Assembly (NCBI RefSeq): GCF_038967635.1
Contig: NZ_CP152413.1
Location: 3,782,001 to 3,846,000, forward strand
Source of the DNA: Bradyrhizobium sp. B124
GTDB lineage: Bacteria; Pseudomonadota; Alphaproteobacteria; Rhizobiales; Xanthobacteraceae
DNA: 64,000 nt
Direction: 5' to 3'
The position numbers were made by a program, and so were the translations under genes. Shown piece by piece: positions 1-18,512 of this stretch. The notes under the pieces are model-generated. The model did no database searches. It had not been told where the DNA came from and saw nothing but the letters and a program-made list of their open reading frames with translations. Numbering within the stretch: position 1 is the stretch's first letter; every line of letters starts with the position of its first letter.

Positions 1-29
1 TGGACTGATTCAGATCACCCAACCGATAG

Positions 30-59
30 CTGATAAGCTTTCAGCGATTTTCTTATCAG
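30..59. repeat. Inverted-repeat site, copy 1 (CTGATAAG-N14-CTTATCAG)
   Basis: Perfect 8-bp arms CTGATAAG (30-37) and CTTATCAG (52-59) separated by 14 nt. The same arms with the same 14-nt spacing recur at 8016-8045. It could be a recombinase core site, an operator or a hairpin. The identical spacing with a different spacer sequence favours a protein-binding site. Confidence 0.6.
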
Positions 60-288
60 TCCGCACGCTGACCCCACTTGGGCCAACCCAATCAGAGCGC
101 GGCGCCGTCGTGAATATTGTGGAGCGACGGAACTAACCGAGTCAGCACCGATGCAGATCGGCATAGCGAGTACGGTAAGATAGAGACGGCGGCGAGCGGC
201 GATAAGCCGATCGCGCGCCGCGCCGCATGGAGATGTACGAAAGCAATGATGGATTATCAATTACCAACGCCAGATGAGGTGATGGATT

Positions 289-927
289 TTGGATCCGCTC
301 ACAATGCGGCCGTGTGGACTAAACATAGGTTTCGCCTCTCAGATCCTTCGAACTTGGATGCAGTTTTGCGGGCATGCGCATCGCCACCCCGAAAGCTTTC
401 CCGACGGCAGGTTTTTCAAATGGCCGACGCGAAACCGGAATGGGGGGGTGATAGCATCCATTGTTTGGGGATTTCCGCGCGGTTCGATGCCGGGCGGGAA
501 ATGGCTTGGCTTTGCGAACGCATTTGAGTCATCCTCGCAGTTTGCTGAAGTCTTGGCCGGCTTCAGGACCACCCCGCAGTCGGCGACCACCACAATCGCA
601 AGACTGAACAATCTGGTGACAGGACTAGGGTTCGCCACGACGACCAAGATGGCTTATTTTGCAAGACTGACGTTTCGGGAGGGACCGGCATTAATTTTCG
701 ACGCCAACGTCATCAAAGCGATCATTGATCCCTTGACTCCTTGGGGAGGCGCATTTCCAAAAACGAGATCGTTGCTCGGTTCAACGAACTTCCACGCAAA
801 AGGTGTACTGAGCTACAGCTGCTACGTCGAAGAAGCCTCAATTCTTGCGCGACTTCACAACGCGACGCCGGATGTGATCGAGGTGGCTCTCTTTCGTTCC
901 GCAGCTCGAGCTGGCACCTGGTCCTGA
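289..927 (+). CDS. OGG-fold (8-oxoguanine glycosylase-like) DNA glycosylase
   Basis: Protein of 212 aa that looks like the bacterial 8-oxoguanine DNA glycosylase OGG-fold family, a helix-hairpin-helix group that excises damaged bases. Seen: an aromatic N-terminal segment (residues 43-75, with WGFPRG at 60-65) and the core ATTTKMAYFARL (116-127), followed by ALIFDANVIKAI (134-145). K120 and D138 are the expected catalytic Lys/Asp pair. Start: TTG at 289, because an in-frame TGA lies at 280-282; ATG at 304 is the alternative. It is the first of three glycosylase-like genes in 3.4 kb. The family call comes from motif memory and the N-terminus is uncertain. Confidence 0.6.
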   Translation: MDPLTMRPCGLNIGFASQILRTWMQFCGHAHRHPESFPDGRFFKWPTRNRNGGVIASIVWGFPRGSMPGGKWLGFANAFESSSQFAEVLAGFRTTPQSATTTIARLNNLVTGLGFATTTKMAYFARLTFREGPALIFDANVIKAIIDPLTPWGGAFPKTRSLLGSTNFHAKGVLSYSCYVEEASILARLHNATPDVIEVALFRSAARAGTWS

Positions 928-1128
928 TTTCGACTCCGACCAAGGCAGGATCGCATTCGTAGGGCTCAAACTCGGAGGACCATCCGGACGAGATCGACGA
1001 CAAAGTTTCGAAGGCACCAATTCCTTTCAGAAGCGCTGGCAACTTGCAACTAAACCACTAGGCTTGCCACTTGAGAGGTGTACGAAAATTTCGATTGCAA
1101 ACAGAATTTTTTAATCGAGAGTTCGACG

Positions 1129-1872
1129 ATGAATGAAGCCCTCGAACTGGACTTGAACCAGTTGCCGCAATTGGACAATCAGTTCTTCGAAGAGGAGAAT
1201 GTTGACATTGTGGCACAAAAGCTGATTGGAGCGATCCTCATATTCGACGACGGCGAGGCCGGCCCAGTTGGGGGCAGCATTGTTGAGACCGAAGCGTACG
1301 ATGATCGTGATCCGACTTCTCATAGCTATTCCGACGACCATTACCCTCCAAAAAAGGGAAGTGAGGCGATGTTCTTGCCGGGCGGACATGCCTACGTTTT
1401 CGCTGCGTCACACGGGTTTTGCTTGAATTTCGTCGTCGGTCCGAAAGGGGTTGGGAGCGCAGTTTTGATTCGGGCACTGAAGCCCTTGCGCGGAAAGAAA
1501 GTCATGCGCATCAGACGTGGCCCTTATTGTCGTGACGCGATTGAAAATGAAGCGCTACTCTGTCACAGCCCCGTCACCTTATGCGAGGCTTTGGGTGTAT
1601 CTGACTATCAGAATGGCGCGTCGCTATTTGAGCTGCCATTCCGACTGTACGCGAGACAATGCGTTCCGCAGCTTATGTCTGGGCCGAGAGTTCGGGTTGC
1701 GTCGACGATAAGAAGGCTTCGTCCCAAACTGGCTGGTTCAGCAAGCGCTGCCGTGAATGCCAAAAGACGTTGGATTGATAAGGCTCATACGAAGTTCGTG
1801 AAGGAAAGAATTGAGCAACCCATCCTCACGAGCCTAGGTCGCACAACCGAAGAAACCGCGGAGAGAACGTAG
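1129..1872 (+). CDS. DNA-3-methyladenine glycosylase, AAG/MPG family
   Basis: 247-aa member of the alkyladenine glycosylase family (human AAG/MPG, Bacillus Aag), which flips out and removes alkylated or deaminated purines. Seen: VDIVAQKLIGAILI, then GGSIVETEAYDD with the catalytic Glu (second residue of VETEAY), TSHS with the conserved His, the PGGHAYVFAASHGFCLNFV strand, and VLIRALKPL with the conserved Arg. The start is ATG 1129; an in-frame GTG at 1078 would add 17 residues. The C-terminal 40 residues are basic and not family-typical. It lies between the OGG-fold gene and a recombinase, all on the same strand. Confidence 0.88.
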   Translation: MNEALELDLNQLPQLDNQFFEEENVDIVAQKLIGAILIFDDGEAGPVGGSIVETEAYDDRDPTSHSYSDDHYPPKKGSEAMFLPGGHAYVFAASHGFCLNFVVGPKGVGSAVLIRALKPLRGKKVMRIRRGPYCRDAIENEALLCHSPVTLCEALGVSDYQNGASLFELPFRLYARQCVPQLMSGPRVRVASTIRRLRPKLAGSASAAVNAKRRWIDKAHTKFVKERIEQPILTSLGRTTEETAERT

Positions 1873-1952
1873 CGCGCACTTCGTCGCCGTTTTCCTCTAA
1901 ATCGTAGCTATGCAGCTCCGTTCGGACACGGCGTGCCTTGAGCGAGCTAAAA

Positions 1953-1960
1953 CTGATAAG
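1953..1960 (+). repeat. Single CTGATAAG half-site upstream of the recombinase gene
   Basis: One arm of the inverted-repeat site, 62 bp before the recombinase start; the opposite arm is absent at the expected 14-nt spacing. Only 8 bp, so chance occurrence is possible. Confidence 0.3.
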
Positions 1961-2021
1961 CTTTTATTGTGTTGCGTGCAGAACGTGATCAGCTAGAATC
2001 TCGTCAGTCGGTTTGATTGAG

Positions 2022-2597
2022 ATGGCAGGCAAACAAGCCAAAATCCTCTCTGCTCAAGCGGCGCGAGACTTAGTTCTCTTCGCCGAAACGACGAGACACC
2101 CGGATAGAAATCGCGTTATCGTCTTACTGTCGTTGAAGGCTGGCTTACGCGCGGCCGAAATCGCCAAACTCACTTGGGAAATGGTCGAGACCGCCGACGG
2201 AGAAATCGGCACAACGATTGAACTGCGCGACGCTGTCGCGAAGAAGCGCCACGGTCGCCGGATCCCGATTCAAAGCGATTTACGCCGCGCGCTGATCGCC
2301 TGGCGTAGGAAATCGCAGGGAGAAGGGCCCGTCATTCGATCTGAGCGCGGCGGCCCCATGACCCCGTTGAGCATCGTTGTCTGGTTCAACCGCGTCTTTC
2401 GCGCGACAGGATTAGACGGATGCTCCTCTCATTCGGGACGCCGAACCTTCATCACTCGCGCAGCTCGCCTGGTTCATGAAGCCGGCGGATCACTCAGGGA
2501 TGTCCAACTCCTGGCGGGCCACTCATCGATCCAGACAACTCAACGATACATCGACGGTGATAGTGATGCTCAGAGGAGGTTGGTATCGCTGATCTAA
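2022..2597 (+). CDS. Core-only tyrosine recombinase (XerC/D type)
   Basis: 191-aa tyrosine-family site-specific recombinase consisting of the catalytic domain only; the N-terminal SAM-like core-binding domain of XerC/XerD is absent. Seen: GLRAAEIAKLTW (catalytic R43), SSHSGRRTFIT (H137 and R140), LAGHSSIQTTQRYID (H167 and nucleophile Y176). Start ATG 2022; an in-frame TTG at 2013 adds three residues. Similar short recombinases occur in rhizobial plasmids and islands. It lies between the AAG-type and HhH glycosylase genes on the same strand, 20 bp before the latter. Its target is unknown; the CTGATAAG sites are candidates. Confidence 0.85.
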   Translation: MAGKQAKILSAQAARDLVLFAETTRHPDRNRVIVLLSLKAGLRAAEIAKLTWEMVETADGEIGTTIELRDAVAKKRHGRRIPIQSDLRRALIAWRRKSQGEGPVIRSERGGPMTPLSIVVWFNRVFRATGLDGCSSHSGRRTFITRAARLVHEAGGSLRDVQLLAGHSSIQTTQRYIDGDSDAQRRLVSLI

Positions 2598-2617
2598 GAA
2601 AGCATCGGAAGCTAAGC

Positions 2618-3616
2618 TTGTTACCCCGCAAGCGGCATGACGGGCCCATCTATTTCGCGATAGGGCTCATCGAAGCGATCGCGCGAGAGACCGCCAGCCG
2701 GTCGAGCTTCGGCCAAGCGACCGTCGCTTCACCTGATCCAAACCTACGTCAAATCGTTCGATCCAAAGATACACCGGCCCTGTTCGACTGGATGGTCGAG
2801 ACCTTCAACTTTCAGGGAATCTCCGACGGCGCCGCAGCATCATATCTGGCGGCTCACGGCGGCATTATGTGGCATCAGATCAAGGCTGAGATTGACCATG
2901 ATCCGACCTGCTCGCTCCTGCAGAGCTACTGGGCTTACGAGGACTGCCGCTACGACAAGACCAAACGAGGGTGTAGTCATCAGCGTCACTTTCGGGGATG
3001 CCCAGTCCCTGCTCATCCCTTGAGAAATGGCCGTCTCAACCAGACCGCGTTTAGCTTCTTCCTCTTCGTCAGAGACGTAGCTGAATCAGATCTCTTCCGG
3101 TGGATCGACGATCAGCTCGCGGCCGCGGCCGACGTTGGCAATTTGTCTGCGCAAGAGTCGTTGATCGGACCGACGCGTCATATCTTCGGAATATCGGACA
3201 AAGTCCTCACCATGACGCTGTCATCAGTGCTGATGGCCGATCGGGAACGCCGGCCCGATTGGTTCGAGGTCGGCAGCCAGATGATCGTCGTCGACCGGCT
3301 CGTGCACAATCTGCTCATCCGCACCGGAATCCTGGCGAAGTCTGGCGCGCCTCACGGTTATGGCCAGCGCTGCTACAGCGAGAACGGCTGCGCCGATATC
3401 TTGCGGCGCGTTGCGGCGCAGATCGACGCGCGGCAATTCGATGCCAGCTTTCCGGCGAATTTTCCGCGCTATATTCAACATGCGCTTTGGCATTACTGCG
3501 CCGGCAGCGGCCTGAACATCTGCAACGGCAACAATATTGATGATCGTAAGTCTTGTGAGCAAATATCGTGTATTGCTTATAGTAATTGCGCTCGAATAGC
3601 GCTGAAAAGGCATTAA
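2618..3616 (+). CDS. Endonuclease III-like HhH protein with a four-Cys (Fe-S type) cluster
   Basis: 332-aa protein I place in the HhH-GPD glycosylase superfamily by motif. Residues 191-199 GISDKVLTM occupy the place of the HhH GVG-KTA motif, with K195 as the catalytic lysine. QMIVVDRLVHNLLIRTGIL (221-239) parallels the VDTHVFR-NR segment of endonuclease III, with D226 as the catalytic aspartate. The C-terminus has C302-X10-C313-X4-C318-X5-C324, close to the C-X6-C-X2-C-X5-C 4Fe-4S loop of EndoIII. Further cysteines at 110, 119 and 128 may bind a metal. Start TTG 2618 is preceded by GGAAG. Its substrate is unknown; the fold is inferred, not tested. Confidence 0.55.
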   Translation: MLPRKRHDGPIYFAIGLIEAIARETASRSSFGQATVASPDPNLRQIVRSKDTPALFDWMVETFNFQGISDGAAASYLAAHGGIMWHQIKAEIDHDPTCSLLQSYWAYEDCRYDKTKRGCSHQRHFRGCPVPAHPLRNGRLNQTAFSFFLFVRDVAESDLFRWIDDQLAAAADVGNLSAQESLIGPTRHIFGISDKVLTMTLSSVLMADRERRPDWFEVGSQMIVVDRLVHNLLIRTGILAKSGAPHGYGQRCYSENGCADILRRVAAQIDARQFDASFPANFPRYIQHALWHYCAGSGLNICNGNNIDDRKSCEQISCIAYSNCARIALKRH

Positions 3617-3751
3617 TATCTGCAATAATTCAAGCAACAAAACTTCAATTAAAGTATTGAAATGATTGATATTTTCACGATAATTGGCGAGTATACTTCT
3701 ACGAGGCTAAGTGTGCTTGCCTCGTGATTTTCAGAAAGAGGAAATAGACAG

Positions 3752-3868
3752 ATGCCAAAACCTAGATTGTCCGGGCCCTCCCGGAGCCAGAATAGATCGA
3801 TCGTCGCAGAAAGGGGCCCAAATCGGGCCCCTTCTGCTTTTGAGGGAGGCTGCAATGACCAAGCCTAA
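3752..3868 (+). CDS. Possible 38-aa leader ORF overlapping a terminator and the next start
   Basis: ATG 3752 follows a purine-rich stretch (AGAAAGAGGAAA) and runs to TAA 3866-3868, 14 nt past the ATG (3855) of the next gene. The intrinsic terminator at 3806-3841 lies inside the ORF, so translation could decide whether transcription continues. No family resemblance. It may simply be an open frame. Confidence 0.3.
   Translation: MPKPRLSGPSRSQNRSIVAERGPNRAPSAFEGGCNDQA
3806..3841 (+). terminator. Strong intrinsic terminator
   Basis: 13-bp stem GCAGAA(A)GGGGCCC / GGGCCCCTTCTGC with one bulged A and a 5-nt AAATC loop, followed by TTTT. It lies 14 bp before the start of the 286-aa gene, so either it ends transcription from upstream or it acts as an attenuator. 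Confidence 0.8.
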
Positions 3869-4715
3869 GGCCTCCAAATCCTCTGCACCTTTGAGTCCTC
3901 CCGTCATCGTCTACGGCCTGGATCCGGCCGGTAAGCCAAAGGCCGGCCGATTTCCCGGGAAGCAGGCCAACCTAGCCAGGAAAGCCGCGCTGGCGTTGAA
4001 GCTGGCGGTCTGCAACGTCAATCGGCCTAAGCTGATCGAGATCGCCTCCAAGATCCCGATTGGCCGTCTGCACGCCCAGGGCAAGGCGTTCCTGCCGTTC
4101 ATCAAACGCGAGCTGTACGACGAGCTCGCGACTGTAGTCTCGCCCGCTTCACGGGCCGCCACCGCGAAAGCCGGTCCAAAGGTGGCGGCGGAAGCGGCAA
4201 GAGCGAGCGCCAAAGTCTATGTCATTCTCGGCTTTGACGAGCGCCTCAAGCCGCGCGGCGCGAGATACCTGAGCCGGAATGAGGACCAGCTGATCAGTGC
4301 GGCCGCCGAGATGAACTTGTGTCTCTATGAAATGCAGTCAGCCGACCTGGTCAGCTGGATCGAGCCGCTTCCGCTCGGCAGACTTCCGCTGACCGGCCGC
4401 AGCTCGGTGCCGGAAATCCGCCAAGCCCTCTACAGCGAGCTCGTCTCGTGGATCGCAGTAGAGGCCGACGCCGTGCCGCGCGGCAAGGCGGACGGCCCCT
4501 TGCCGGCTCAGAAGGGTTTTCCAGAGAACTGGGAAACTATCGAAGCTGGACATCTCGTCGTCGCCCAGGAATCGCAGGAGCACGGCTGGGCAGAGGCCAT
4601 CGTTGTGGAGCGCAAGGGTGATCTTCTGACGCTTCGCTATCGTGATTATCCGAAGGTGCCGCGGTTCTACCGGCACCACCGAGCCGTCGCGCTTCTAAGC
4701 CCGGCGGCCACGTAG
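3855..4715 (+). CDS. Unknown protein: tandem duplicated domain plus a C-terminal Tudor/SH3-like domain
   Basis: 286 aa. Two imperfect repeats of about 80 residues are visible: VIVYGLD-GKPKAGRF to ELYDELAT (roughly 16-95), and KVYVILGFDERLKPRGARY to ALYSELVSWI (roughly 118-200). Each ends in a GRL-P-I/R-L-Y-EL pattern. A third domain (about 225-280) has WETIEAGHLVVAQE-GWAEAIVVE-GDLLTLRYRDYP, which reads like a small beta-barrel of Tudor/chromo/SH3 type. I know similar C-terminal domains from uncharacterised Bradyrhizobium proteins. Start ATG 3855 has a GGGAGG-like RBS. No enzyme motif. Nucleic-acid or chromatin binding is a guess. Confidence 0.75.
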   Translation: MTKPKASKSSAPLSPPVIVYGLDPAGKPKAGRFPGKQANLARKAALALKLAVCNVNRPKLIEIASKIPIGRLHAQGKAFLPFIKRELYDELATVVSPASRAATAKAGPKVAAEAARASAKVYVILGFDERLKPRGARYLSRNEDQLISAAAEMNLCLYEMQSADLVSWIEPLPLGRLPLTGRSSVPEIRQALYSELVSWIAVEADAVPRGKADGPLPAQKGFPENWETIEAGHLVVAQESQEHGWAEAIVVERKGDLLTLRYRDYPKVPRFYRHHRAVALLSPAAT

Positions 4716-4736
4716 CACTGAACTCGTAGCACCCCA

Positions 4737-4764
4737 ATGGCGCGGCTCAAGCCGCGCCATCTTT
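4737..4764 (+). terminator. Intrinsic terminator after the 286-aa gene
   Basis: ATGGCGCGGCT / AGCCGCGCCAT inverted repeat with a tight loop followed by CTTTC, 20 bp after the stop codon. Confidence 0.65.
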
Positions 4765-4804
4765 CAACTCACATCCCCAAATACTGCACTGATAGGAGCA
4801 AGCC

Positions 4805-5134
4805 ATGTCTAACGACAAGGCGCGGATTCGCGCGCTCAATGACGATCTACGCCGGCATCTGCTAGGTGGCGGCGCCGTGATGACCATAGGGATTGCATCT
4901 CTTGGTCCCGAAGCAGTCCTTCGGCTGGTCCAGACCATCGCGGTGTTCGACGATTTCTGTACCGAGAACGACCCACACAGTGAGCATGATTTTGGCGCCT
5001 TTGACTTCGAGGGCGTCAGAGTCTTTTTCAAGATCGACTACTACAATCTCTCGATGACCGGACACTCGCCCAATCCAGCAGATCCAACGGTCACGGAGCG
5101 AGTGATCACACTCATGTTGGCTGACGAGTACTAG
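4805..5134 (+). CDS. DUF3768 protein
   Basis: 109 aa. RIRALNDDLRR at the N-terminus, then FDDF-NDPHSEHDFGAFDFEGVRVFFKIDYY (about 48-79) and a C-terminal VTERVITLMLADEY match the DUF3768 family, common on rhizobial plasmids and islands and of unknown function. Preceded by GATAGGAGC (RBS). It converges with the XRE regulator, the stop codons being 6 bp apart. Confidence 0.9.
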   Translation: MSNDKARIRALNDDLRRHLLGGGAVMTIGIASLGPEAVLRLVQTIAVFDDFCTENDPHSEHDFGAFDFEGVRVFFKIDYYNLSMTGHSPNPADPTVTERVITLMLADEY

Positions 5135-5140
5135 CCTTGT

Positions 5141-5386
5141 TCAGTCGTCCTTGCTCGCCATCATCCGTTTGATGGCTTCCCGAGGATCGAAACCGATTGC
5201 TTCGGCAAAGGCAATCAGTTGAACAGCATCCACCTTCCTCTGGCCGGTCTCTATCGAGGCCACAAAAGACTGGTACCGCTTCAACTTTGCGGCAACCGCG
5301 GCCTGCGTGAGACCGGCCTTCTTTCTCTTTTCGATCAAGAACAGCCGAAGCGTCTCATGTCGCGTCGACTGCAAGGTACGTGACAT
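5141..5386 (-). CDS. XRE-family transcriptional regulator
   Basis: 81 aa, a single helix-turn-helix of lambda-Cro/XRE type: LRLFLIEKRKKAGLTQAAVAAKL, then YQSFVASIETGQRKVDAVQLIAFAEAIG. ATG 5386 is preferred over GTG 5398. It is divergent from the large exported protein at 5608. The 220-bp space between holds two AT-rich palindromes (5432-5473), probably its operators, so it may repress itself and the exported-protein gene. Confidence 0.85.
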   Translation of the reverse strand: MSRTLQSTRHETLRLFLIEKRKKAGLTQAAVAAKLKRYQSFVASIETGQRKVDAVQLIAFAEAIGFDPREAIKRMMASKDD

Positions 5387-5431
5387 GGGTCCGCCCACCG
5401 AACAGGTGGAGCGAACAAATAATCCTGCTTC

Positions 5432-5473
5432 TAGATAATCTAAAAAACGGATAATATCTGAAATTCAGATATT
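5432..5473. promoter_or_regulatory. Two palindromes, candidate operators of the XRE regulator
   Basis: TAGAT-A-ATCTA (5432-5442), and AATATCTGAA-A-TTCAGATATT (5453-5473) with perfect 10-bp arms. Both are AT-rich, lie in the XRE/exported-protein divergent region, and suit a dimeric HTH repressor. Confidence 0.55.
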
Positions 5474-5607
5474 TTGAGCCGTTGCAACCTCTCAGCCAGC
5501 CCTCTCACCCACATCCGACATTGCCGACGGATTTCCAGCCACTTCTTCCAACATCGCCGCACAATCCTGCATTGCGACACGGCGGTATGATTGCGAAAGG
5601 ATTATCG

Positions 5608-7887
5608 ATGTCTGCGGTTCTATGTGGCTTCCAAGCGCGACTTTTTGAACTGGTTACCTTGGTTTCGATCGGTTCGTTGGCCACCGCACATGCACAATCG
5701 CCGGCCGACCTCTTTCGTCAGTTCGACCGAACGATCAATTCAGCCGTTGCAGAAGCCAATCAATCCCGCTGGGAGCGGCTGCCAACAACCGAGCTGGTCT
5801 GCATCGACAGGGCACTCCAGCGCAAAGGCTCGAGCCTCTCCATCGTCGTTCCAAACCTGCAGCCGACCGATCCGAGACTTGCCGAGATCCGCAGCCACTG
5901 CCGGCCAGCCAGCGGTCCGCCGGCACCAGATGGCCTGGCTTCTCTACCCAAGCCATCTGTTTATGCCGTCGACGGCCTTGCACTCGGCGGCAAGGTCAAT
6001 TTCCAAAGCTCGGCCTACGCTCAGTATGACTGCCAAGCGAGCAATAGCTTTCCAGGATTTACCTGGTGCCAGAAAGCCAAGCACGACCCCGACCCGAGAG
6101 GCCCGACTACTACCGCAACCTCGATCCTGCATGCGGAAGATGGCACGGCGGTCTACGTCAATCGGTCGCTGAAGCCGGCGTTCTTGAGAGCGACCGACGC
6201 TCAAGCCGAGATCACGCGCCTCTCCGCCAAGTACGGCTCGGCCGACGTCCGGCGCGCGACCGATCCTTCCGCGGCCGCGAATTCCGTCATTGCAACCTTC
6301 GGCGAAGTAACCTTGAAGCCGCTAACCGAACCAGAGGTTCAGCTCGCAGCGACCGGCCGCCAGCCGCGCGACCGAATTCCGTTCGACTTTTTCGGCGATT
6401 TCCAACGCTCGGCGCAAAATGGTCTTCCGGTCTTCTGGATTCACGGCGGCAGCGGCTTCGTCTGGTCGGCCAGTTTCGACGCGAATGGACGCGGCCATCT
6501 CCGGTTCGCAGCAGTCGATGGCAGATCCTTCACCAAGCCATTTGGGCCAGTCGACCAAGCGTCTTCCGATTCAAAGGCCGGTCCCGGAAGAACTTCGCCG
6601 CCACCATCGAATGGGGAAGTGGGGGATGCCGACAATTCACAGCCTACTTCAACTCAGACCGCAGAGCCGTTCTACATCGGTCCATCGGTTCGGATCCGAT
6701 CAAGAACGCCGATCGGCACGATTGCCTCATCCGACGCGATCTGCGCCCTGTTGAACCACCCGCTGTTCTCACGTGGCGAGGTCGAGACCGGCTACTGGAA
6801 ATCCGTCGCCGATCTAGATCCGGATCATTCCGGCAAGCAGTGGATTGTTGCCCACCTTCCCCCCGAAGTCCGTGAGCCTCAATTTGTCTCGGAAATCGAC
6901 AACGAAACAGCGGCGAAAGCAGAAGCCAACCTCCGAATTTGCCTGCAGAAGCTGGTCGCCACTAACGCCCGCGCACCGGCTGCGGTAAAGCGGATCCTTA
7001 TCCCCAATCTGAACGTCGTTTGCTTCGACCCCGCACATTCTGATTCCAGTGCTCGAACGAACCCAACTGGCGACTGGCCGAAACGACGGCAACTCCAGCT
7101 CCAGTGCATTGGCTCGACACGGATCGACACCACAAGAACGGACAAATCGTCGGAAAGCTTTCTGATGTTGACCATGATGGAGGCTCAGCCAACCTTGCGG
7201 ACTCTGCTCGATAGAGCGGACCAAGCGTTACAGACCGAGATTGCTGCAAAACAGGACGAGCAGCGGAAACTAGACAACCAGAAGTCAGAGGATCGCCTGC
7301 GCCTCGAACAGATCCAACTGAAGCAAAAGCAAGATCTGATCGACCAACAGGCGGCTCGCCAAAATGCCGAGCAACTCCGGTTAGAGGAATTGCGCCAAGT
7401 CGCCGCAAAAATGGGTCCCGAGTATGCGAACAAGCGTGAAACTGAATGGTCCATCTCGTCCAAGATCGACGAAATGACCGACAAAGCGGTTCTGACGGCC
7501 TATTCGAGACAAGGCGCAGCTGGCGTCGTCGCCGAGATAAAGATCAGCTGCGGCGCCTCAGGACTCGCCATCACAGCGTTGGTCGTCGACCAGGCCGGCA
7601 AACCCACCGTGGAGCTGCCCACTATGGGCGGCATGCCAGGCAACCCCGTCGTCGGTCAAATGCGGCTCAACGACGAGCCGCCGAGCCCGGCAGGCTTCTT
7701 TCCTGCGAGCGATTTCCGGAATGAGCTCAGCATCCCCACCATGACGGCAGGCCAATCGCTCGCGGACGGCATCTACTGGCGAGTCTATGCTTCGATTCCG
7801 ACGGACAAAGGCCAGCTCTTCATCAAGATCCCGATTTACGCGCCGCAGATCCAGGAAGTCATCAAGAGCTGCCCGCCTCCTCATTGA
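5608..7887 (+). CDS. Large exported protein with a C-terminal coiled coil, function unknown
   Basis: 759 aa from ATG 5608 (AAAGGA RBS; an upstream in-frame start at 5482 would add 42 residues). Signal peptide of about 29 residues with cleavage near AHA|QS. The middle is polar, Pro/Ser-rich and beta-like, with scattered Cys pairs suiting a periplasmic protein. A 60-residue charged Gln/Glu/Arg-rich coiled coil follows at roughly 535-600, then a terminal domain with PTMGGMPGNP and a final SCPPPH. Shared with no family I recognise. Its only regulatory partner in view is the divergent XRE gene. Confidence 0.75.
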   Translation: MSAVLCGFQARLFELVTLVSIGSLATAHAQSPADLFRQFDRTINSAVAEANQSRWERLPTTELVCIDRALQRKGSSLSIVVPNLQPTDPRLAEIRSHCRPASGPPAPDGLASLPKPSVYAVDGLALGGKVNFQSSAYAQYDCQASNSFPGFTWCQKAKHDPDPRGPTTTATSILHAEDGTAVYVNRSLKPAFLRATDAQAEITRLSAKYGSADVRRATDPSAAANSVIATFGEVTLKPLTEPEVQLAATGRQPRDRIPFDFFGDFQRSAQNGLPVFWIHGGSGFVWSASFDANGRGHLRFAAVDGRSFTKPFGPVDQASSDSKAGPGRTSPPPSNGEVGDADNSQPTSTQTAEPFYIGPSVRIRSRTPIGTIASSDAICALLNHPLFSRGEVETGYWKSVADLDPDHSGKQWIVAHLPPEVREPQFVSEIDNETAAKAEANLRICLQKLVATNARAPAAVKRILIPNLNVVCFDPAHSDSSARTNPTGDWPKRRQLQLQCIGSTRIDTTRTDKSSESFLMLTMMEAQPTLRTLLDRADQALQTEIAAKQDEQRKLDNQKSEDRLRLEQIQLKQKQDLIDQQAARQNAEQLRLEELRQVAAKMGPEYANKRETEWSISSKIDEMTDKAVLTAYSRQGAAGVVAEIKISCGASGLAITALVVDQAGKPTVELPTMGGMPGNPVVGQMRLNDEPPSPAGFFPASDFRNELSIPTMTAGQSLADGIYWRVYASIPTDKGQLFIKIPIYAPQIQEVIKSCPPPH

Positions 7888-7920
7888 TGACTGAAGTCGC
7901 CATGAAGGCGCAGTGAGAGA

Positions 7921-7947
7921 GGCGGAGCGGCATAACGGTGCTCCGCC
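7921..7947 (+). terminator. Stem-loop downstream of the exported-protein gene
   Basis: GGCGGAGC / GCTCCGCC, 8-bp stem and 11-nt loop, 33 bp after the stop codon; only a short CTT tail. Confidence 0.45.
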
Positions 7948-7984
7948 CTTCTCTGCCGACCGGCCACGGCCACTACATTCCGAA

Positions 7985-8001
7985 GCCGGATTCGAACCGG
8001 C
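7985..8001 (-). other. tRNA T-arm-like fragment
   Basis: On the minus strand GCCGG-TTCGAAT-CCGGC, a perfect 5-bp stem with a canonical T-loop, but no matching acceptor stem or anticodon arm nearby. It could be a tRNA 3'-end relic from an earlier integration, or coincidence. It is 15 bp from the second inverted-repeat site. Confidence 0.3.
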
Positions 8002-8015
8002 CGAGGACCGTCCAA

Positions 8016-8045
8016 CTGATAAGGAAAGACAACAAACCTTATCAG
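8016..8045. repeat. Inverted-repeat site, copy 2 (CTGATAAG-N14-CTTATCAG)
   Basis: Arms 8016-8023 and 8038-8045 with the same 14-nt spacing as 30-59. The arms extend here to AACTGATAAGG / CCTTATCAGTT, 11 bp each. Confidence 0.65.
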
Positions 8046-8092
8046 TTCCAATGACGCGTACTGGGCTCACTTTCGTCGGTTCACCGCCAGAT

Positions 8093-17008: not shown

Positions 17009-17395
17009 ATGGTCCACGACTCAAAAACGATCCATACAGAGCGCTCCGTGGACTCATCTGCCCCTCTCCGGCTTGAGTTCGCCGCGAAGTTTGCGTTTCC
17101 GGACGGCTCGATGACAGCGTCTGGTCTACGCCGCGAAGCCGCTCGAGGCCGTCTCACGATAGAACGGATCGCAGGTAAAGATTATACTACCTTGCAAAAC
17201 ATTAGGCTAATGAGAGAGCTATGCCGCGTCAAAGTAAAGGAGCCCGGCTCTACAAGCGAAGAGCACGCTATCGCGACGGAAGACTCATCGCCCAAGCCGT
17301 CTGGATTATCAAAGACGGCGACCGGCATGTCGCCACAGGCTGCCTTGCGAGTGCGTCTGCAACAAAGCCGCCTCGCGAAGCAGAGCAAGCCCTAG
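17009..17395 (+). CDS. Probable excisionase / recombination directionality factor
   Basis: 128 aa. Residues about 25-70 (LEFAAKFAFPDGSMTASGLRREAARGRLTIERIAGKDYTTLQNI in part) read as a MerR/Xis-like winged HTH, in which a helix, a GRL wing and a Y-TT second helix recur. This gene type precedes the tRNA integrase in many Bradyrhizobium islands. Its last 175 nt overlap the integrase gene in another frame, which is unusually long. The C-terminal third is low-complexity and may be an unselected extension. Confidence 0.65.
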   Translation: MVHDSKTIHTERSVDSSAPLRLEFAAKFAFPDGSMTASGLRREAARGRLTIERIAGKDYTTLQNIRLMRELCRVKVKEPGSTSEEHAIATEDSSPKPSGLSKTATGMSPQAALRVRLQQSRLAKQSKP

Positions 17396-18501
17396 CGGAA
17401 TATATCGCCCGAAAGTACCAACCCGAGCGCACCCGGCGCGACATCGAGGACATCGATTGCGCGGACGTCCTGTCGATCTATTTGACCGACATAGGCGAGC
17501 CAGGCGACCAGTTTGAAATTGAAACCAGGATCGACCGCCTTAACGACTTTTGGGGCGGCAAGAAGCTATCAGGGGTCAATGCTCAGACCTGTGCAGCTTA
17601 CGCCAAGCATCGCGGCAATCAGGGCGGCGCGCGGCGCGACCTTGAGACCCTGCGCGCTGCGATCAACCATCATGCAAAAGAGGGCCTTCACCGCGGCACC
17701 GTTCGCGTATCCCTCCCGCCGAAGGGCGAGGCGCGCGACCGATGGCTGACACGCAAGGAAGCGGCAGCACTGGTTTGGCAGTGTTGGCGGTATCGGGAAA
17801 AGCAGACAATCCACACTGGCGGCTTCAAGGGCGATCCGGTCCGGACCGACCGCCGACCACTACGTCACATAGCCAGATTTATCCTGATCGGCCTCTACAC
17901 CGGCACGAGGGCGGGCGCTATCGCGACGGCATCGCCCTACCCCGAGGTTGGGCACTCGTACGTCGATCTCGAGCGTGGTATCTTCTACCGCAAGCCGATC
18001 GGAAAACGAGCCACCAAAAAGCGCCAGACACCGGCTCCGCTTCCACCCCGGTTGCTTGCTCACATGCGTCGTTGGAAAAGCCGGAAGCTGATCAGCACCT
18101 GCTTTGTCGAGTTCAATGGCAAGCCGGTTGCTTCCGTCAAAAAAGGGTTCAAATCTGCCGTGGATCTGGCCAAGCTACCCGGGAAGGTCACCCCGCATAC
18201 GCTCCGGCATACGGCCGCGACGTGGCTGATGCAGCGCGGCGTGCCGATTTGGGAGGCGGCCGGGTTCCTGGGCATGTCGCCGGAGGTGCTACAGGACACC
18301 TATGGTCACCACCACCCTGACTATCTCCAGGGGGCGGCGGCCGCGATTGGCCAAAAGGGCCGGTACGTTTCGGTGGTTGAATCGGTGGTTGACTCGGGAA
18401 CAGCCGCCAACGAGAAGAAAAAGTCTAAGGAAATCTGGTCGGAGTGGCAGGATTCGAACCTGCGACCCCTGCGTCCCGAACGCAGTGCTCTACCGGGCTG
18501 A
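17221..18501 (+). CDS. Island integrase, tyrosine recombinase
   Basis: 426 aa. It catalyses integration at tRNA-Pro. Catalytic residues: R230 (TGTRAGAI), H326 and R329 (HTLRHTAATWL), Y361 (DTYGHHHPDY). Met352 sits where most family members have His/Trp (FLGM). An N-terminal DNA-binding part (about 80-170) precedes a conserved RDRWLTRKEA linker. The last 20 residues (from SEWQDSNLRPLRPERS) are encoded by the antisense strand of tRNA-Pro and the stop lies inside the tRNA, so this C-terminus exists only in the integrated state. Confidence 0.93.
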   Translation: MPRQSKGARLYKRRARYRDGRLIAQAVWIIKDGDRHVATGCLASASATKPPREAEQALAEYIARKYQPERTRRDIEDIDCADVLSIYLTDIGEPGDQFEIETRIDRLNDFWGGKKLSGVNAQTCAAYAKHRGNQGGARRDLETLRAAINHHAKEGLHRGTVRVSLPPKGEARDRWLTRKEAAALVWQCWRYREKQTIHTGGFKGDPVRTDRRPLRHIARFILIGLYTGTRAGAIATASPYPEVGHSYVDLERGIFYRKPIGKRATKKRQTPAPLPPRLLAHMRRWKSRKLISTCFVEFNGKPVASVKKGFKSAVDLAKLPGKVTPHTLRHTAATWLMQRGVPIWEAAGFLGMSPEVLQDTYGHHHPDYLQGAAAAIGQKGRYVSVVESVVDSGTAANEKKKSKEIWSEWQDSNLRPLRPERSALPG

Positions 18502-18512
18502 GCCACACTCCG
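18436..18512 (-). tRNA. tRNA-Pro (CGG), island attachment site
   Basis: Minus strand: 7-bp acceptor stem CGGAGTG/CACTCCG, anticodon stem-loop CTGCG-TTCGGGA-CGCAG with anticodon CGG, T-loop GGTTCGAATCC, discriminator A and encoded CCA (18436-18438). The 3' half is the attachment site; the island lies on the 3' side. The tRNA stays complete after integration. Confidence 0.95.

Follow-up and report, generated by a model that had tools for sequence, protein, structure and literature searches.

A Core-Only Tyrosine Recombinase, 32-bp Palindromic Sites and an HhH-GPD-Fold Partner Gene Suggest a Cassette Platform in Bradyrhizobium

Organization of the Locus

The stretch analysed here (the window) comprises 64,000 nucleotides of the genome of Bradyrhizobium sp. 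B124 (contig NZ_CP152413.1, positions 3,782,001 to 3,846,000), a single contig of 9.17 Mb. Its left end carries a gene for a tyrosine recombinase (REC), followed by a gene for a protein of predicted HhH-GPD fold (the HhH protein) and preceded by genes for DNA glycosylases of the OGG and MPG types; short palindromic sites lie among them (Table 1). Based on genome comparison, we suggest that REC, its unit and the 32-bp sites are likely to form a cassette platform that has its own recombinase and resembles integrons or dif modules. As a part of this reading, and with the same good probability, region 1951–8046 would be a mobile recombinase unit that runs from the arm of one site to a complete second site.

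Table 1. Features of the window, with positions counted from its first base.
Feature	Position	Strand	Remarks
Full palindromic site	29..60	.	One mismatch among the 18 bases of the arms; central hexamer CAGCGA; borders the OGG–MPG block on the left
OGG-like gene (PF21790)	246..927	+	Frame broken at the G7 run 442–448
MPG/AAG-type glycosylase (PF02245)	1078..1872	+	Probable ATG at 1132 (own reading); frame open
Left arm ACTGATAAG	1951..1959	.	Conserved recombinase unit starts with its first base; the other aligned loci have different DNA upstream
Promoter-like TTGC..TAGAAT	1972..1999	+	Between site and REC; conserved in 23/25 loci
REC, core-only (catalytic domain only) tyrosine recombinase	2013..2597	+	PF00589; probable ATG at 2022 (own reading)
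HhH-GPD-fold protein, 332 aa	2618..3616	+	Lys195 and Asp226 invariant; AlphaFold-predicted endonuclease III-like fold
P3711, repeated domain and Tudor/Agenet-like C-terminus	3711..4715	+	Probable ATG at 3855 (own reading)
DUF3768 protein (PF12599)	4805..5134	+	Domain scan
Helix-turn-helix regulator	5141..5398	-	Domain scan
801-aa protein without family	5482..7887	+	Last gene of the recombinase unit in the window
Full palindromic site	8015..8046	.	No mismatch; hexamer GACAAC; right border of the REC unit
P8093-family gene of a mobile block, 228 aa	8093..8779	-	Right of the unit
Full-length tyrosine integrase	17221..18501	+	Overlaps tRNA-Pro (18436–18512, - strand) at the GC step; recognised by eye as an open reading frame

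The comparison was made with 265 Bradyrhizobium genomes (a same-genus set, taken as that genus; the relatives named in the searches are likewise Bradyrhizobium), and for most loci only about 9 kb on the 5′ side of REC was retrieved. The gene order REC, HhH, P3711 and DUF3768 was complete in 22 of the 36 retrieved loci, including those with HhH fragments. The unit of the window matched another locus (L044) over 1951–8047, starting with the arm and ending just one base after the right site, with a gap near 7733–7777.

In the Pfam and NCBIfam scan, the first three open reading frames (ORFs) of region 289–3616 matched PF21790, PF02245 and PF00589, while none of its four ORFs (OGG, MPG, REC and HhH) matched in the PADLOC scan. 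REC reached 16.6 bits on the integron-integrase model TIGR02249, for which the cut-off is 265. Its relatives of less than 60% identity are common on plasmids, chiefly of Acinetobacter and Piscirickettsia (486 of the 488 records with a match). The promoter-like sequence upstream of REC was not listed by the sigma-70 scan. The predicted structure of P3711 had a mean predicted local distance difference test (pLDDT) score of 77 and a predicted template modelling (pTM) score of 0.54; against solved structures it gave no match at E ≤ 0.001, and those among the matches listed were mostly Tudor and SH3-like domains. It should be noted that in one genome (G143; L051, 10476–11553) REC is split, apparently by an inversion, with the first 57 codons lying nearby in the opposite orientation and a degenerate site between the two parts.

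The left 17 kb of the window have a GC content of 53–59% and the right part has mostly 62–68%. The integrase at this step is probably that of the host island enclosing the cassette system, which appears to be nested within this larger tRNA-Pro island.

Palindromic Sites

DNA similarity on the 5′ side of REC ends sharply, at about −62 in the clade of the window and at about −98 in most of the second clade. At this edge lies either the 32-bp palindrome ACTGATAAG-N14-CTTATCAGT, which has a 13-6-13 form, or its left arm alone, the latter being retained at about −62 in the clade of the window. Ten of 27 loci have a complete site between about −101 and −64 relative to REC: in eight of them at −97 to −64 with a spacing of 14 or 13, in L046 at −101, and in L063 with a spacing of 12.

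When the window was shuffled 100 times, the pattern gave no match. Across 45 loci, a total of 55 sites with ≤3 mismatches were counted (one of them twice, as the window and L078 overlap); the spacer was exactly 14 in 45 and 13 in seven, and base shuffling gave 0.33 sites per round. At the same threshold the genome of the window has five sites, four of which lie within 35 kb around the left end of the window, and none of the reversed pattern. At least one site with ≤2 mismatches was present in 108 of the 265 Bradyrhizobium genomes, against 1 of 265 for the reversed-pattern control. The other genera of the order remained at chance level (4/288 for the sites and 8/288 for the control). An earlier note on this DNA, made from the letters alone (the sequence-only reading), had supposed sites belonging to the element itself; a recombinase with a matching set of sites is indeed present here in REC and the palindromes.

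The 78 distinct sites consist of two arms, each separated by one base and a tract, mostly AAA or TTT, from a central hexamer that varies and occurs in 36 kinds. Sixty of these have pure tracts, namely TTT-AAA (28), AAA-TTT (11), AAA-AAA (11) and TTT-TTT (10). In REC-adjacent sites, AAAC precedes the right arm in 8 of 10, and the left half and the hexamer vary more, as would be expected if blocks join there. In 11 of the 14 loci that have a site with the hexamer CTCTCA or CTCTCG, this is the farthest or the sole one found on the upstream side of REC. L043 and L047 have this site alone, no more than 190 bp from REC, which gives the impression of an empty array.

Two further observations concern the sites. 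In L050 (7972–8040) and L054 (11865–11933), two sites with the hexamers CTCTCA and CTGCGA lie 5 or 6 bp apart and may represent an empty block or a double site. Four viral-contig stretches (L091–L094) contain an exact match to the site pattern, possibly by chance.

Blocks between the Sites

The borders of homology between genomes fall on the sites in a number of cases. Among 64 chosen loci (around REC, HhH, OGG or sites, rather than whole genomes, with ends at sequence edges omitted), 12 of the 295 homology ends had a site no more than 20 bp away in each of the two loci, with 0.011 expected; these 12 are not all independent, as several represent one block, or the REC-side border, met in different pairs of loci, and most of the other ends are off sites. 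For instance, L050 and L063 have 786 bp in common at 92.6% identity, which start exactly with a site and end one base beyond the following site. This block is adjacent to REC in L050 and L054 and one place farther out in L063. Another block of 5,587 bp, 99.7% identical in L052 and L064 and ending at the last base of a site, adjoins REC in L052 and lies about 3.2 kb from it in L064, where the REC region is about 70% identical. A block with a SIR2 gene is shared by L055 and a conjugative plasmid of B. japonicum (L084) over 4,403 bp at 97.3% identity; it starts one base before a site, and its other end is off any site.

Blocks of about 0.7–1.3 kb without a recombinase gene recur between sites in different arrays. 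Relatives of P8093, whose gene follows the unit on the right in the window, were found to the left of REC in three other loci, in two of them between two full sites. A contig of a genome without a close REC (G014, C10; L125–L130) has seven sites across 140 kb, and the recurring gene families of its blocks look, by eye, like transport and metabolic genes.

Association of REC with the Sites

A close REC (≥68% identity) was found in 26 genomes, one of which (G077) has an internal stop and a shortened match. Sites were present in 23 of these 26 genomes (mean 4.0) compared with 85 of the 239 others (mean 0.67; Fisher p 1.7e-7), the latter group including genomes with partial or short matches (G012, G073, G093, G195, G208 and G257) and those with the sister clade only.

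The sister clade of REC (49–56% identical) has a variant of the site, ACTGATGAT-N14-ATCATCAGT, of the same 9-14-9 geometry and located about 120 bp upstream of REC. The variant lies beside the sister REC in four of eight loci (in three with ≤1 mismatch and in the fourth with two). Genome-wide, six of the eight sister-clade genomes contain it, compared with three of 58 others, and in two of these three the middle is unrelated; this count covered 66 of the 265 genomes. In G041 and G139 further variant sites follow upstream, and in G148 and G193 the sites are more than 10 kb from REC. On sequence comparison, a sister clade with its own variant of the site appears to be the best evidence linking REC to the sites. 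No HhH gene was found in the retrieved stretches of this clade, which nevertheless has the same kind of site; therefore, the HhH protein seems to be unnecessary for the site system as such, and this suggests that sites can exist without it. Even so, modified bases at the sites of the element may be processed, which was the second role put forward in the sequence-only reading.

Several points weigh against the proposed cassette platform. As seen above, 85 genomes have sites and no close REC. In 12 stretches from four such genomes, no REC-family gene was found, other recombinases not having been scanned for. Only 10 of 27 loci have a complete site next to REC, and the REC-side border in the window shows the arm only. 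The close REC of G039, which also lacks an HhH gene, has no site in its 13.5-kb stretch, and no such palindrome was found in the 700 bp upstream of REC on two Paracoccus plasmids. Besides, the two sites of a block often differ in the hexamer, a situation unfavourable to ordinary two-strand exchange. Neither circular forms nor movement of blocks were observed, the system being known here from genome comparison, and eight proteins of a second cargo set of ten were without a PADLOC match, so that not all blocks are defence genes.

The HhH-GPD-Fold Protein

The sequence-only reading had taken the protein encoded at 2618 for an endonuclease III (EndoIII)-like enzyme, and the structure prediction now agrees with it. 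The protein had no Pfam or NCBIfam match, and no HhH-GPD family was among the Pfam matches of 120 members of its family. Alignment of the AlphaFold model with VIA-align gave 48 of 50 rows with DNA glycosylases of the HhH-GPD fold and two with a queuine salvage enzyme; the Foldseek E-values are weak when taken alone. With the genome's own Nth there was a weak local match (probability 1.2%, E 0.043). By prediction, the protein has an EndoIII-like HhH-GPD fold. No relatives were found in phages at E 1e-5, and the sequence search of solved structures gave no relevant ones. A sequence kinship with the OGG family was considered and rejected, as there was no profile match.

Lys195 and Asp226 do not vary in alignments A1 and A2. 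We take these, by motif and, for the Asp, also from the Nth match, to be the expected positions of the catalytic Lys and Asp of EndoIII. Because both are invariant, the HhH protein is probably an active DNA enzyme of the glycosylase/AP (apurinic/apyrimidinic)-lyase type. The Lys-to-Asp spacing is 31, in contrast to 18 in the genome's own Nth. Ten Cys are invariant in a 44-row alignment, and an eleventh, Cys318, is present in at least 90%. Compared with EndoIII, four extra conserved Cys (98, 110, 119 and 128) lie in an insertion. The C-terminal Cys 302, 313, 318 and 324 are conserved in a region where the confidence of the model is low, and their spacing differs from that of the four Cys of the EndoIII [4Fe-4S] cluster.

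A full or fragmentary match to the HhH protein was found in 36 of the 265 genomes. REC was located directly upstream on the same strand in 25 of the 28 full-length copies (>900 bp; 43 of the 48 listed places were used, and further pieces of broken copies were omitted), and the three full copies without REC retain P3711 and DUF3768. Two Paracoccus plasmids (32% identical) carry REC, DUF3768 and the HhH protein together; a third has REC and DUF3768 and is absent from the HhH matches. Since HhH goes with REC both in these 25 copies and on the two Paracoccus plasmids, it belongs to the recombinase module. In a class-wide sample, the protein occurred in 2 of 385 genomes, both of them Bradyrhizobium. 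The HhH genes of five genomes (L029–L033; longer stretches L070 and L071) are reduced to the C-terminal half, with an internal stop and an equal score, and are decayed copies.

As for its task, the chance that the HhH protein assists REC or the upkeep of the unit comes close to even. That it is a resident defence gene is a serious possibility, albeit short of an even chance, and any other task is unlikely.

OGG, MPG and Other Cargo

The genes that the sequence-only reading had placed in region 289–3616 are real. However, the OGG frame is broken, and its proposed start at 289 lies in the wrong frame for the first third of the gene. Compared with homologues of 226 aa, 246–446 aligns in one frame and the remainder up to 924 in another, the switch falling at the G7 run. 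Despite the break, the PF21790 match reached 44.8 bits (cut-off 27), and the Lys and Asp (GFATTTK and IFDANV) are invariant in 15 aligned sequences. MPG matched PF02245 with 118.1 bits against a curated cut-off of 27. The genome carries MPG twice, with the other copy at genome position 1,100,051; among 11 genomes checked, the other ten each have one MPG, and the island-borne copy was found in the genome of the window only.

PF21790 is present in 8 of the 265 genomes and is adjoined by MPG in the genome of the window only. Neither OGG nor MPG matched in the other retrieved loci, and no plasmid relatives of OGG were found at E 1e-5. Both genes lie between the site at 29–60 and the arm at 1951, and they appear to be one cargo block, separate from REC and HhH. 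A different PF21790 gene was noticed in G143 (L053, 13089–13709), just past the third site upstream of the REC–HhH module and 2.65 kb from the HhH copy. OGG-like genes thus adjoin this kind of array in two genomes.

In a first set of ten larger proteins from blocks and inter-site stretches, picked because they looked defence-like or were recurrent, all ten had a PADLOC match. The strong matches were PDC-S37, PDC-S26, PDC-S06 and PDC-S65, followed by a Dsr1-like protein; the weaker ones were TIR-helicase, OLD/Gabija-like and two small proteins. The cargo also includes a SIR2-like protein. In the second set of ten, two matched (a helicase and DUF5131). The cargo includes many defence-like genes and is not limited to them. 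The mobile setting proposed in the sequence-only reading was retained, while the joint function of the glycosylase trio was not; a mobile island with many defence-like genes makes a defence role of the OGG and MPG cargo plausible. Four small recurrent block genes (L045 12048–12674, L049 11295–11909, L053 11360–11836 and L063 7173–7580) had no Pfam or PADLOC match at E 0.001 and are candidates for defence or accessory functions.

Comparison with Known Systems and Alternative Explanations

In integrons, as here, a recombinase gene has a site at its 5′ end and a movable array of gene blocks beyond it, the role of the site at REC being our inference. Clusters of attC lacking integrases are known, and likewise sites occur here without a recombinase. 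However, REC is not of the IntI family and consists of the catalytic domain only. The attC sites are of the long-hairpin type, whereas the borders here are 32-bp palindromes of 13-6-13 form, and a partner gene of the HhH-GPD fold is present. The dif (pdif) modules of Acinetobacter plasmids are similar in having discrete blocks, short sites with a 6-bp centre, distribution among replicons and adaptive cargo. According to PMC6449649, pdif sites are of 28 bp (11-6-11) and are bound by XerC and XerD. The present sites differ in their 32-bp length and arms, and the array includes a dedicated recombinase. Of the known kinds, integrons and dif modules come closest; one defining feature of each was looked for and was absent. 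Short "simple" tyrosine recombinases, with a core-binding and a catalytic domain, have been linked to dimer resolution, integrons and non-conjugative elements in a survey of these enzymes (PMC8138268).

Given the likeness to dif modules, which are also site-bounded movable blocks with a 6-bp centre (PMC6449649), the sites could be dif-like sites of the host XerC/XerD and the blocks dif modules, with REC as a passenger; the presence of sites in genomes without a close REC is consistent with this. We consider it a remote option. The dif of B. japonicum, as given in PMC2731167, is GATTCGCATAA-GGTATA-TTATGGAATAT, which is 28 bp long with ATAA and TTAT 6 bp apart, whereas the sites here are of 32 bp with a distance of 16 bp and other arms. 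Moreover, the other genera of the order presumably have Xer too, yet contain these sites no more often than by chance, and the arms of the sites change with the REC clade. It is also conceivable that the sites are attL and attR ends of serially inserted ordinary integrative elements with REC rather than borders of cassettes. Such elements would agree with the REC unit bounded by an arm and a site, with some site-bounded stretches of 12–14 kb and with the location of the whole within what seems to be a tRNA-Pro island with its own integrase. The short blocks without a recombinase that recur between sites in different arrays, and the several sites in succession upstream of REC in many loci, make this improbable. 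Least credible, to the point of being nearly dismissed, is a transcription terminator or another RNA hairpin marking gene ends. The palindrome is an intergenic inverted repeat with complementary tracts in 39 of the 60 pure-tract sites, and the terminator scan lists a part of a site (window 29–45); yet the tracts are non-complementary in the other 21, homology borders fall on sites, and region 1–3700 of the window has three terminator-like matches against 4.3 in shuffles.

The sequence-only reading had favoured a joint role of OGG, MPG and the HhH protein, such as an attack on modified phage DNA in the manner of Brig-type defence glycosylases. Three glycosylase families within 3.4 kb, in an island with defence-like genes, invite this idea, as does the G143 locus, with its different PF21790 gene on the upstream side of the HhH copy at 2.65 kb. 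Glycosylase-based defence has been published (PMC11078745 and PMC13160076), and like Brig1 and Brig3, for which an anti-phage role was shown, the window proteins would be prokaryotic DNA glycosylases; Brig1 homologues are often found in defence islands. However, Brig1 belongs to a different family, the uracil-DNA-glycosylase superfamily (PMC11078745); the window proteins had no Pfam match to that superfamily. The trio does not recur (OGG in 8 of 265 genomes, the island MPG in 1 of 11), OGG is broken in the window, and it is REC, P3711 and DUF3768 that the HhH protein accompanies, rather than OGG or MPG. Because the co-occurrence is not repeated and the HhH protein follows REC, a joint three-glycosylase system was rejected as the best reading, and we give it little credence.

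Proposed Mechanism and Significance

The cassette platform with its own recombinase remains the likely explanation. From sequence comparison, it is supported by the site structure, the genus specificity, the homology borders on sites, the REC–HhH linkage and the site variant matching the REC clade. The action of REC on the sites, the direction of insertion and every enzymatic activity are what we infer. REC would bind the 32-bp sites, with their two 13-bp arms and 6-bp centre, and recombine blocks carrying the same sites. Judging from the anatomy of the arrays, the blocks would accumulate beside REC, mostly on its 5′ side, and OGG with MPG would be one such block. As is general for tyrosine recombinases, REC probably forms a tetramer on the arms of two paired sites, with strand exchange in or at the edge of the hexamer. 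The most likely use of the platform is the collection and swapping of phage-defence and other accessory genes.

In the literature searched (titles and beginnings of abstracts, with most subscription journals outside the coverage), no description of the site or the system was found. Tentatively, it may be a third kind of bacterial cassette platform beside integrons and dif modules, in which a catalytic-domain-only recombinase with 13-6-13 sites of clade-specific arms stocks and shuffles defence and accessory blocks across Bradyrhizobium and has an HhH-GPD enzyme of the base-excision type as a built-in recombination partner. If our suggestion is true, Bradyrhizobium would have a cassette exchange of its own, trading defence genes between strains and recognisable by a simple, searchable sequence signature, and a dedicated recombinase with short defined sites would become available for study and use. 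A new question would also arise, namely what makes an enzyme of the base-excision type accompany a recombinase, and block genes without a family, such as that of P8093, would become candidates for defence functions.

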